Origin: Marvania coccoides
Taxonomy: Eukaryota; Chlorophyta; Trebouxiophyceae; Chlorellales; Chlorellaceae
DNA: 64,000 bases
Reading direction: 5' to 3'
Assembly: GCA_963854735.1 (NCBI GenBank)
Contig: OY978098.1
Span: 806,001 to 870,000, forward strand
Shown here piece by piece: positions 14,654 through 42,062 of the stretch. The notes under the pieces were generated by a model. It was given only the letters and a program-made list of their open reading frames with translations. It was not told the DNA's origin and searched no databases. Numbering within the stretch: position 1 is the stretch's first letter; each line of letters opens with the position of its first letter. The position numbers and the translations under genes were made by a program.

Positions 14654-17600
14654 ATGAACGGAAACTCGGGTCCGCAGCCATATTACGCTGCGCGTCCACC
14701 TGGTTTCGCTCCAGCGCCAGGTCAGTCAAAAATTTTGGGATGTTTCTAGTCGATCTGCGTTTGTTGAACATTATACGCCCTTCCAAACACATCGCCCCAC
14801 CTGGAAATAATCATTATCACCACCCGCGCAGGTTTCAGCGGCGCAGGGGGTCCCCCTCAGCCCAATGGGGCGCCAGCGGCAGTTCCCGGCTTCCCGCAGG
14901 GTAGCAGAGGCCCAGCCCCTCCTCCAGGGCCCTACGGCGCGCCTCAGGGTCCCCAGCGGCCCATGGCGCAGCTGCATCAGATGAAACTGGGGGCACAGCA
15001 GCCAGCGCCAGGCTCTGCAGTGAGGCCAGCGCCAGCCAGCCCTCTAATAGCCTCTCAGCAGCCTGGCGCAGGCGGGTACGCTGCCCCGCCGCCCATGCAG
15101 CGCCTCGCTGCGTTTCCTGGAGCACCGCCTATGCAGCAGCCAATGCAGCAGGCGCCGCAGGCTCTTCCTCACCCGATGATGCCACCACCGGCAGCTCGGC
15201 CACCACCGCCAGCAGCAGCAGCAGCAGGACCACCGCCGCCCCAGACGTGGCCTGCAGGGATGCCCACGCAGCCACCAGGGCCCGCCATTCGCACCTCTGC
15301 TGCAGCAGTAATGCCAGCGCAAGCTCCGATGTTGCCTGGTGCGAGGCCTGCAGGACCTCCGCCGCCCCTACCAGCTGCAGCTACCCAGCAACCCAGGCCT
15401 CCTATCGCTGGCGGTATCGGCGGTCCTTCTTTCCCAAGAGGGCCGCCACCGTTGCAGCAGCAGCAGCAGCCTGCTGGTATGCTGCCGCAGCGGCCTCCTG
15501 GTGTGATGGGCCCAGGAATGCCGCCGCAGCCAATGTACCCAATGCGGCAGCAGCAGCAACAGCAGCAGAAGCCAATGGGAATGGGAGGGATGCGGCCACC
15601 CCCTCCCATGATGGCAGGAGGCTTTCCACCTCAGCCCATGCAACCACCGATGCAGCAGCAGCAGCAGCAGCAGGCGCCGTTGTCGCCTCTGGGGGCAGCG
15701 CGGCCACCGTTCTCCCCCGCTGCAGCGTACTCCCAGCAACAGCAGCAGTTTGGCGGCCCTCAGCTGCCGCTGGGCGGATTTGCCCCTCCTCCCGGCGCAG
15801 CAGCAATGCTGCCACCCCACCTTTCCCAGCAGCCTCCCGGTGCCTGGGCGCCGCCCTCTTTTGGCGCCCCCCCGCCCCCTGGCGCACCCCCTGGCTCCCC
15901 CAGGCCGCCCTTTTCTGGGGCGCCAGCGGGGCAGCAACTACCGCCGTCGCAGCAGGCGCAGCAGCCTATGGGGGGGCGAAACATCGACCCAGGGTCCATG
16001 CCGCGGCCGTCTCCCTGCCCTCCGCCCGCTCAGATCTTCACCACGCGGGTTGAGGGCGTGCATGCCATCCCGCCGCCCACTGAATGCCCGATTGCCGTCC
16101 GGGACACAGGGTGCGCTGGCCCGCGTCACATGCGGTGCTCGCTCAACTCTGTGCCGCAGGGCGCAGACCTGCTGAAGTCCTCGTCGCTGCCGTTTGTGGT
16201 GCTCATCAACCCCCTGGCTGTGCCAGAACACGGCGATACTGCCATTGAAGTCATTGATCCCGGGCCTGCTGGGCCCCTGCGGTGCTCCCAGTGTAAGGCC
16301 TACGTGTGCCCCTTCATGCAATGGCCCGCGGGGGGGCGCATGCAGTGCTGCTTCTGCGGAGGGCTCAGCGATGTGCCGCCGGGCGCCTTCAGCGGTGGCG
16401 GCAGCGAGGGCCCGCCGGAGCTCCGCTGCGGCTCGGTGGAGTACGAGGTAACGGGAGAATACCAGGTGCGCCCCCCCGTGGCCCCCACCTACTATTTCCT
16501 CATAGAAGTGACGGCAGCGGCGGTGGGGAGTGGCGCCACCGCGGCTGCCTGCGCCTCGCTGGCGCAGCTGCTGGACGAGCTGCCGGGGGGAGACCGCGCA
16601 CGGGTGGCGGTGGCCACGTTTGACTCCCGCCTTCACTTTTATTCGCCCAGAGAGAGCGGCGGCCAGCCCACGATGCTTGTTGTCACTGATGTGGCAGAGC
16701 CCTTCTGTCCGCTGGGTGGTGGGGTGGCGCTGCGCCTGGGGGACCACAAACCCGCGCTGAAGGCGCTGTTGGAGTCGATTCCGAAGACATTTGCTGGCAC
16801 CACAGCGGGGGAGAGTGTCGGCGGGTCAGCGCTCAAAGCAGCAGTGGACGCGCTGAAAGCTGGCACGGGCGGGCGGCTGATCGCGTTCCTAGCGTCGCTG
16901 CCGCAGACAGGCACGCTGGCGCTGCGCCCCCGCGAGGCTGGCCGGCCGCCCTCCGACCGAGACACTCTGGACGTGATGCAGCTGGAAAATAAAAGCTACG
17001 CGGCGCTGGCGGCGGACGCAGCGGACCACCAGGTCAGCGTTGACGTTTTTGCGTTGAGCCAGGGCTACGTGGACCTCGCCACGCTCAGCGTTCTCACTGC
17101 AGGGACATCTGGCTCTCTGCACCGCTACAACCCCTTCACGCCCCCAGCAGACGGTGCCCGCTTCCACAACGACCTGCGGTGGTGCCTGGTGCGCCCCCAG
17201 GGGATGGAGGCGGTGTCCCGGCTGCGCTGCTCCCGAGGTTTAGCCGTCGAGAACTACGTTGGTGCGTTCCACCGAAGAAACCTCACGGACTTGCACTTCC
17301 CGGCGCTGTCGTGCGACCACGCGGTGGCTGCGAGGCTGGTGCACGAGGAGCGGCTGCAGGAGAACTCTCAGGTGTGTCTGCAGTACGCGCTGCTGTATAC
17401 CACCACTGACGGTCATCGACGCGTGAGGGTGCACACCGTGGCGCTGCCTGTGACGCGGTCACTGGGGTCGGTGTTCAGGGGCGCGGATTTGGACACGTAC
17501 GTGACGTACGTGGCCAGGAAAGTGTCGGCGCAGCTGCCCGGGCGGGCTATCAACGCCTGCAGGGACGTTGTTATCAAGGCGGCAGTTGACACCCTGGTGG

Positions 17601-40420: not shown

Positions 40421-40535
40421 CCTAAGAATTTCTTAGGAAAAACCTTACTGTCACAGGTTGCGGGGAACTTGTTGCATTCCACTAAGAAATTATTTCTTAG
40501 GAAACAGAGTTTCCTAAGGTAACTTTCTTAGGAAA
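40421..40535. repeat. Cluster of CCTAAGAAA palindromes
   Basis: The 9-mer CCTAAGAAA or its complement occurs about six times in 115 bp in alternating orientation. Perfect stems form at 40421-40437, 40482-40500 and 40497-40517. Confidence 0.85.
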
Positions 40536-40604
40536 ACGGCGTTGAGGCGGCGGTAGTGGACCCTGCTTTAAACAAAGTAATCATCCAACTTCCTACCTGG
40601 AAAA

Positions 40605-40691
40605 TCGTGCTTCATTCTGAGCGCAGGTTCGAGTCCTGTCACCTGTACAAAAGTGCAGGTGTGGCCGAGCGGTTAAGGCGGCACGTTCAGG
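40605..40691 (+). tRNA. Circularly permuted tRNA-Leu(CAG)
   Basis: The 3' half (40605-40647) lies upstream of the 5' half (40655-40691), with a 7-nt linker CAAAAGT. The 5' half reads GCAGGTG, then the D-arm GCC-GAGCGGTTAA-GGC, then stem GCACG and TTCAGG. The 3' half reads T, stem CGTGC, a class II variable arm with a TCA/TGA stem, T-arm GCAGG-TTCGAGT-CCTGT, then CACCTGT and discriminator A. All four stems pair once the halves are rejoined (one G-U at 1-72, one G-U in the T-stem). Anticodon CAG and A73 fit leucine. Upstream ACCTG can pair with CAGGT to form the splicing helix. The B box thus precedes the A box, and TTTTTT at 40700-40705 can terminate Pol III. Confidence 0.9.
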
Positions 40692-40699
40692 TCATTATA

Positions 40700-40705
40700 T
40701 TTTTT
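40700..40705 (+). terminator. Pol III T-run after permuted tRNA
   Basis: Six T residues begin 9 bases after the end of the 5' half. A longer T-run follows near 40718-40727. Confidence 0.6.
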
Positions 40706-40727: not shown

Positions 40728-40798
40728 AAAGTTCAAGTCCTGTCACCTGTACAATTTAAGCGCAGGTGTGGCCGAGCGGTTAAGGCGGCACGTTCAGG
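40728..40798 (+). pseudogene. Decayed tandem copy of the permuted tRNA-Leu
   Basis: A truncated 3' half (AAAGTTCAAGTCCTGT then CACCTGTA, ending 40751) is followed by a 10-nt linker and an unchanged 5' half (40762-40798). The anticodon 3' stem and variable arm are missing and the T-stem no longer pairs, so this copy cannot make a tRNA alone. The downstream TTTTTGCTACTTTTAAA is also duplicated. Confidence 0.8.
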
Positions 40799-41054
40799 TC
40801 AACTTTTTGCTACTTTTAAACTTCAGCGCCTGCCCCCCTTGACCTTCTCCTCGCTCCAACATGTTGTTCAACATACGTTTGCTCGTTTGCCAATCGTCAG
40901 GCAGCAGATGGGCTGCATTTTTCGGTCGTGATGTTGGAATCTAAAATCCAATCGCAAGATTTCGAGCAAAACGCGAATTTGTATGCGCACGATGAACTTG
41001 TTCGGCACATTTCCAGAGGTTGTGGCTTGTTTTCCGCCTTAGATCCCATCCAAA

Positions 41055-42062
41055 ATGCGAGACGCGCTGATGTCAAAGCAGGTAGAAAGTCACTTTCAAA
41101 GTGTACTTCTGCTCGATGTCCAACTTTTTTTTCTGTTTTTGAAAAGTAGGCAAAACTACAAACGTTTGGCTGCCACTACCAGTAAAACACTGAATAGAAT
41201 TTTCTCAGATGACACCACCCTGGCCACCACCCACTCCACCGGTCTAGACAGGCACTCCCTCATGCTTACAAACACCTCAATCCCGCAACGCTTAAAAAGC
41301 TTGACCTGCAAAATCCGACTCAATCGCTTATTTACACGCGCTCGATTGCACATATTAAAACCGCTAACAGTGGCCGCTTCATGCCCTCTTTGCACCCACG
41401 GAAATGAAACCCAGGGACATGTACTAGGCGGATGCCAACACACAATTATTCATGGCATGGTCTGCAAAAGACACGGCAAAGCAGTTGCAATCATTGCAAA
41501 AGCCATACAAAAAGGCCCCAATGGTAACTTCCAACTATTTATGGATGCTGAAACAGTAGAACACTCCCTACCAGCCCTCCCACAATGGTTCCCCTCTGCC
41601 CCCACGGAAGTCCGGACAAAGCCTGACATCATATTCTTCCCGGCAATCCCTTCCGAATTCCTGTGCACAGAAACTGATCAACTCGCCCAAGATAAAAAAG
41701 TGGTATGGTTCATAGAAGTTGGATTCACAGGGGATGGATATATATACGACAAAATGACAACAAAATCTCAACAGCACGCCCCATATGCAGCATGGTTGCA
41801 TACCCAAGGATACAGACAGTTCGCACTTACACAATCCTCATTACCTACTCTGGCTGCATCACACACCCTGACGACAAAGCTGCTTACAGACTGTGGCCTC
41901 AACCACACAGAAATTTCATCCACAGTACGTAAAATCCACAGCCTCACAGCCAACTACAATAGCAGCTTAATATCCACTCGAAGACACCTGACCTCTCGCC
42001 TCCCTCATGCCCCCCTACTTCCACCTCCACCCCCACCTGCCCCAGCATCAGGGATCGGCTAA
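41055..42062 (+). pseudogene. C-terminal part of non-LTR retrotransposon ORF (RLE endonuclease)
   Basis: Open frame of 335 codons matching the end of an R2-type element: a zinc knuckle CPLCTHGNETQGHVLGGC, then KPDIIFF and WFIEVGFTGD, which fit the PD...E layout of the restriction-like endonuclease. DKMTTKSQQHAPYAAWL follows, as in the family. No reverse-transcriptase domain is present upstream, so this copy is 5'-truncated, as is common for such elements. Base composition is more AT-rich than in nearby host genes. The assigned start (ATG 41055) is arbitrary. Confidence 0.75.

Follow-up and report, generated by a model that had tools for sequence, protein, structure and literature searches.

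According to the portions of Soma 2014 (PMC3978253) drawn on here, 34 permuted tRNA genes had been described by 2014, in six algae and one archaeon, with intervening sequences (linkers) of 1-74 nt. The same portions give 11 such genes for Cyanidioschyzon merolae, including a type II tRNA-Leu(CAG) gene with a 9-bp linker. Permuted tRNA genes are also described in those parts of the literature that concern the Amorphochlora nucleomorph (PMC4494063) and Auxenochlorella UTEX 250-A (PMC12636532, PMC12633428), and excerpts of two further papers (PMC13353863, PMC9871001) add none. Here we describe a tRNA-Leu(CAG) locus with its halves in reversed order and a linker of 7 nt, which falls within this known range. 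We conclude that it is, very probably, a nuclear gene that functions in circularly permuted form, with a type II junction (37/38).

Layout and genomic setting of the tRNA-Leu(CAG) locus

The locus lies in a 64-kb stretch of DNA, the window of this analysis, which corresponds to positions 806001-870000 of contig C2 (3.03 Mb) in a 22.46-Mb assembly of 15 contigs. Sequence similarity places the host among chlorophytes near the Chlorellales: the best named matches to its Rpn8 are from Micractinium (60-65%), although an odd Reevesia pubescens entry (55% over 67%) tops the list, and its mitochondrial Nad2 matches Chlorella vulgaris at 71% and Auxenochlorella at 64%. Unnamed database proteins reach 83% and 80%, over most or part of the query. 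Two contigs, C14 (49 kb) and C15 (100 kb), are organellar, with ORFs that we take by eye to be mitochondrial nad2, cob and atp6 and plastid psaA, psaB and chlB; the Nad2 family assignment was confirmed by search. A plastid or mitochondrial origin of the locus can be rejected, since the window is on C2 and the organelle contigs are separate.

On the plus strand of the window, at 40605-40691, tRNA positions 38-73 come first, followed by the linker and then by positions 1-37 (Table 1). An earlier note on this DNA had claimed swapped halves separated by 7 nt, and the claim is exact. Its account of the rejoined molecule also stands: pairing is complete in the acceptor (7/7), anticodon (5/5) and T stems (5/5), the D stem, read by hand, comprises 3 bp (GCC/GGC), the anticodon is CAG and the discriminator A73. 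The conserved residues T8, G18G19, T33, TTC and A73 are all present by eye. The B box stands ahead of the A box and a T6 run follows the gene, both as that note had it. The junction is of type II, with no intron and CCA not encoded; its placement is ambiguous by one base because a T follows G37 and a T precedes the 3' stem strand. Just 7 nt, free of any T run, separate the halves, an arrangement that does not correspond to a split (trans-spliced) tRNA.

Two further features were observed near the locus. Just upstream, ATTTCTTAGGAAA repeats are clustered at 40424-40535, some of them in inverted orientation. On the other side, an ORF at 41043-42062 on the plus strand, a few hundred bases downstream of the tRNA unit, matches zf-RVT below threshold (E 4.5e-05; 24.5 bits where the cut-off is 27.5) and is possibly the remnant of a non-LTR retrotransposon.

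Table 1. Features of the tRNA-Leu(CAG) locus (window positions) and the other permuted tRNA genes (contig:position)
Feature	Position	Strand	Remarks
TTTAAA, candidate TATA-like element	40567-40572	+	about 33 nt upstream of position 38
Leader ACCTGGA	40595-40601	+	complementary to TTCAGGT, 40686-40692 (anticodon loop and first trailer base)
3' half, positions 38-73	40605-40647	+	from sequence and ARAGORN on rejoined halves
T38	40605	+	within 3' half
Anticodon 3' strand CGTGC	40606-40610	+	within 3' half
Variable arm	40611-40622	+	within 3' half; class II tRNA
T arm/B box	40623-40639	+	within 3' half
Acceptor 3' strand	40640-40646	+	within 3' half
Discriminator A73	40647	+	end of 3' half
Linker CAAAAGT	40648-40654	+	7 nt, between acceptor 3' and 5' strands
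5' half, positions 1-37	40655-40691	+	from rejoining with 3' half
A-box motif	40662-40679	+	within 5' half
Anticodon CAG	40688-40690	+	within 5' half
T6 run	40700-40705	+	starts 9 nt after position 37
Second-unit 3' fragment (T loop, T-stem 3' strand, acceptor 3' strand, A73)	40731-40754	+	96% identical, 24 nt; R1 E 0.0014
Second-unit complete 5' half	40762-40798	+	identical over 37 nt; in 44-nt repeat, 98%, spacing 107
TTTTT after second 5' half	40804-40808	+	
Ser(AGA)	C3:117520	-	linker 71
Ser(GCT)	C3:1990492	+	linker 6
Arg(CCG)	C11:309109	+	linker 6
Tyr(GTA)	C3:566949	-	linker 8
Asn(GTT)	C5:154691	+	linker 51; anticodon stem 4/5 pairs by hand
Phe(GAA)	C5:1241718	+	linker 8
Leu(AAG)	C4:440589	-	linker 6
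Ala(CGC)	C6:847173	+	linker 21; 3' half seen in part, anticodon read by hand

Detection, precursor fold and processing

That a standard tRNA scan would miss this gene had been predicted, and proved correct. Run in place on the window, ARAGORN left the permuted Leu gene uncalled, its sole call being a tRNA-Ser elsewhere, and Rfam at gathering scores reported nothing in the window; once the halves are rejoined, ARAGORN returns tRNA-Leu(cag). The tRNA-Ser(gct) call (15166-15250, minus strand) lies inside a proline-rich ORF which we take, by eye, to resemble Sec24, and is probably false, since Rfam omits it and the genome has a permuted Ser(GCT) gene on C3.

Permuted-tRNA searches, by contrast with these scans, do recover the locus. 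We used a purpose-written scanner and R1, a covariance model built by rotating eight of nine normal-order nuclear tRNAs, none of them leucine, into a fully nested structure; the sole junction that either covers is 37/38. Across the window, R1 found the Leu(CAG) locus with an E-value of 3.9e-12, a second unit downstream (Table 1), and nothing else up to E 10. Over 51 sources (157,772 bases), it gave Leu(CAG) 41.9 bits, against at most 28.1 at any normal-order gene. As a chance control, the scanner was run on 60 first-order Markov sequences of 64 kb each (7.68 Mb over both strands), with no strict and four loose matches, and on 19 control loci (57,304 bases, both strands), with no loose match. 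Its false positives were a neighbouring pair of plastid Gly and His tRNAs and one low-complexity minus-strand match in another genome stretch. A chance origin is rejected on the R1 E-value and the absence of strict matches in the Markov sequences. An assembly error has in its favour that near-repeats such as the 107-bp one at the locus are prone to misassembly, but both error and chance are countered by the spread of the nine clear permuted genes, which occupy separate sites on six nuclear contigs, and by the empty strict scan, and we give these explanations together almost no credence.

The rejoined 80-nt sequence, searched against the whole genome, matches this locus only, in four pieces, and no other intact, normal-order tRNA-Leu(CAG) gene was returned. 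A diverged copy could escape such a search, because the diverged Leu(AAG) gene was not returned by it. A-box and T-arm patterns found no leucine isoacceptor besides Leu(CAG) and Leu(AAG). Of the 299 leucine codons in six ORFs of the window (stop-to-stop frames, as opposed to annotated genes), 192 are CTG.

Pairing of the upstream leader with the anticodon had been put at 5 bp (ACCTG/CAGGT). The pairing exists, but its extent is greater: ACCTGGA and TTCAGGT form a helix of 7 bp, one of them G-U, directly beside the anticodon stem, and this is the best-scoring leader/loop pairing of the eight permuted genes tested. The minimum-energy fold of 40590-40700 contains the leader helix, the anticodon stem and an extended acceptor stem, to which A73 and the linker add two pairs that close an AAAA loop; D and T arms are absent from it. 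Only one of 200 shuffles of this segment folds as well. Across the eight genes (Ala left out) the pairing rule weakly beats swapped partners, with a mean of 10.25 for a gene's own leader against 8.84 for mismatched gene pairs; 3363 of 40320 permutations do as well as the true pairing, which falls short of proving a general co-adaptation of leader and anticodon.

Further upstream, TTTAAA is a candidate TATA-like element by analogy with the genes treated in the cited part of Soma 2014 (PMC3978253). TATA-like words occur upstream of several other permuted genes, though not clearly so for Asn(GTT), in a survey that covered the upstream region of Leu(AAG) in part and excluded that of Ala. The A+T content upstream of Leu(CAG) is in weak excess (0.50 against a background of 0.44). 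At the other end, a run of at least four T lies within 20 nt after position 37 in all nine permuted genes, against 8.9% of random window positions, and the T6 run at Leu(CAG) is probably an RNA polymerase III terminator.

How might such a gene give rise to a tRNA? RNA polymerase III would transcribe the leader and the 3' half first, then the linker, the 5' half and the trailer, and the leader would pair with the anticodon loop beside the anticodon stem to form an hBH-like splice substrate. Sen2/Sen34 endonuclease would then remove leader and trailer, and a ligase would close the circle through the anticodon loop, after which RNase P and tRNase Z would excise the linker. Addition of CCA would complete a tRNA-Leu(CAG) that could be charged. 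The cell thus probably makes each permuted transcript circular before opening it again as a normal tRNA. Two exons of the host genome carry a tRNA endonuclease domain, and a PDB sequence search led from one to Sen34 and from the other to Sen2, so that the endonuclease on which a permuted tRNA would depend is represented by Sen34-like and Sen2-like exons. A B-block TFIIIC domain match on C8 (E 9.4e-11) points but faintly to TFIIIC, because 4 of 14 prokaryote controls are hit by that model as well.

The second unit and the origin of the locus

The second unit, overlooked in the earlier note, lies 107 bp downstream and consists of a 3' fragment and an identical 5' half; the repeat spans the T loop through the T run, with a spacing of 103-107 bp. 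Missing from the fragment are the anticodon 3' strand, the whole variable arm and the T-stem 5' strand, so that neither 5' half can make a tRNA with it. Between the second 5' half and the first 3' half, pairing over a linker of 114 nt is conceivable in principle. The trailer of the second 5' half differs from that of the first (TCAAC against TCATT).

This unit raises the question of whether the locus should be read in another order altogether. The first 5' half (40655-40691), an intron and the downstream 3' fragment (40732-40751) would form a normal-order gene with the A box and B box in their usual succession, but such a gene would be missing two of its eight stem strands (anticodon 3' and T-stem 5') and its variable arm, and ARAGORN makes no call there. 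We reject this reading, which has a negligible chance of being correct. Alternatively, the locus might be a dead remnant: a tandem array of tRNA-Leu genes, each with an intron and in normal order, would have lost its outer halves, the permuted appearance would be a by-product and no tRNA would be made. The order of 3' half, 5' half, 3' fragment and 5' half does fit an array trimmed at both ends, as considered in the available part of Soma 2014 (PMC3978253), and derivation of the Leu locus from intron-bearing genes trimmed in this way is possible. That it is a dead remnant appears improbable, however: the first pair of halves is intact in every stem and has a matching leader helix and terminator, the genome search found no other copy of the sequence, and only Leu(CAG) and Ala(CGC), among nine permuted genes in the stretches examined, possess an extra piece. 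We accordingly retain the functional permuted gene as the preferred reading.

At Ala(CGC), on C6, the extra piece is a copy of the 5' half, identical in sequence and lying 61 bp downstream (847173, 847234); each 5' half has its own T run, the second a T8. Our reading of the extra 5' halves in these two of nine genes is that they are partial tandem duplications of existing permuted genes. The second unit at Leu(CAG) would then be one such duplication, unable to yield a tRNA alone.

Permuted tRNA genes across the genome and in known systems

Where the earlier note treated the locus as isolated, the genome contains at least nine permuted genes. Conserved A-box and T-arm patterns, followed by inspection of small genome stretches, brought the clear nuclear cases to nine (Leu CAG, Leu AAG, Ser AGA, Ser GCT, Arg CCG, Tyr, Asn, Phe and Ala CGC), located on contigs C2, C3, C4, C5, C6 and C11. 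When seven of the eight sister genes (all but Ala) were rejoined, ARAGORN gave the expected anticodon in 7/7. Ser(AGA), with its long linker, is not listed by R1, and Leu(AAG) scores 25.1 bits, below the best normal-order gene; these two consequently rest on pairing and ARAGORN.

A tenth candidate, at C2:2868955 (2868908-2868972), has the permuted succession of T arm, acceptor with pairing strands and A box and reaches 42.1 bits with R1, but is left out of the nine for want of a readable anticodon arm and of an ARAGORN call when rejoined. There is no T run nearby, and a decayed gene, an extra intron or another junction are candidate explanations. Also left uncounted is a leucine-like orphan 5' half at C9:405999, for which we found no T-arm-like partner among TTCRA motifs in 3 kb and, by eye, no valid anticodon arm; the 5'-half-like motif is closely followed by a run of about 14 T. 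Twelve A-box/T-arm stretches were inspected, seven of which contained no recognizable tRNA. Beyond the genes counted there are at least seven further good tRNA-like sites, namely six T arms (of 12 nuclear rows), at C2:1103866, C2:2922908, C3:84612, C9:612103, C11:860325 and C13:298699, and one A box, at C4:12859.

For comparison, twelve normal-order nuclear tRNA genes were read (Val, Gln, Met, Gly, Glu, Cys, Asp, Lys, Thr, Ser(TGA), Ser(CGA) and Arg(ACG)), the last three together with Cys, Lys and Thr containing introns. The anticodons of Ser(TGA) and Ser(CGA) were read by hand, ARAGORN labelling these genes Thr and Gly. Permuted genes thus make up 9 of the 21 unambiguous nuclear tRNA genes read, in a sample that is biased: the initial search scored 63 of 454 candidates, the patterns were better suited to certain families than to others, and the count does not extend to many of the rows they returned. 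An earlier figure of only nine normal-order nuclear tRNAs was dropped, given that fraction of candidates scored and the subsequent appearance of Ser(TGA), Ser(CGA) and Arg(ACG). A G1-U72 first acceptor pair was noted by hand in nuclear Leu(CAG), Leu(AAG), Arg(CCG), Gly(TCC) and Lys(CTT).

Taking the nine clear genes together with one doubtful gene and the seven or more further sites, we tentatively suggest that in number of permuted tRNA genes this nucleus may surpass every genome in the literature compared (11 in C. merolae). If so, the extra 5' halves might be live traces of the partial tandem duplications by which permuted genes are created and reshaped, a spare 5' half being able to pair with the same 3' half if termination fails. 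We put this proposal somewhat short of an even chance. A core chlorophyte with at least nine permuted genes, among them the only copy found of the tRNA for the commonest leucine codon, would suggest a systematic feature in part of the Chlorellales and not a curiosity. It would also offer a tractable gene set for the origin of permuted tRNA genes and for how RNA polymerase III reads a B box ahead of an A box, and it indicates that standard scans can undercount nuclear tRNA genes in such algae.

How, then, does this gene set compare with those already described? The Leu(CAG) gene of C. merolae, though from a distant lineage, shares with ours the anticodon, the 37/38 junction, the lack of an intron and of an encoded CCA, and its nuclear location; both linkers are very short, 9 bp there and 7 here. 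A second 5' half is not mentioned for it in the portions of the literature cited, whereas one is present here. According to the same portions, junctions in C. merolae fall at several positions, whereas our nine genes fit 37/38, the sole junction searched, and C. merolae is without a TFC1/TFC3 homologue, whereas our host has a B-block TFIIIC match, to a model that also matches 4/14 prokaryote controls. Ostreococcus, Micromonas and the nucleomorphs of Bigelowiella and Amorphochlora have in common with our host the green lineage and a junction mostly at 37/38, and O. lucimarinus Cys(GCA) has an extra 5' half downstream, as does Leu(CAG) here (PMC3978253, in part). In the excerpts compared, these genomes have 2 to 6 genes each, with Ser recurrent, against at least nine here (Leu, Ser, Arg, Tyr, Asn, Phe and Ala). 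For Auxenochlorella, a green alga of the order nearest to the host by protein similarity, the partial sources indicate that the standard tRNA search is incomplete there too. The Leu(CAG) gene described here therefore adds to a known class, permuted Leu(CAG) being known in Cyanidioschyzon and permuted tRNA genes in Auxenochlorella from the literature excerpts cited.
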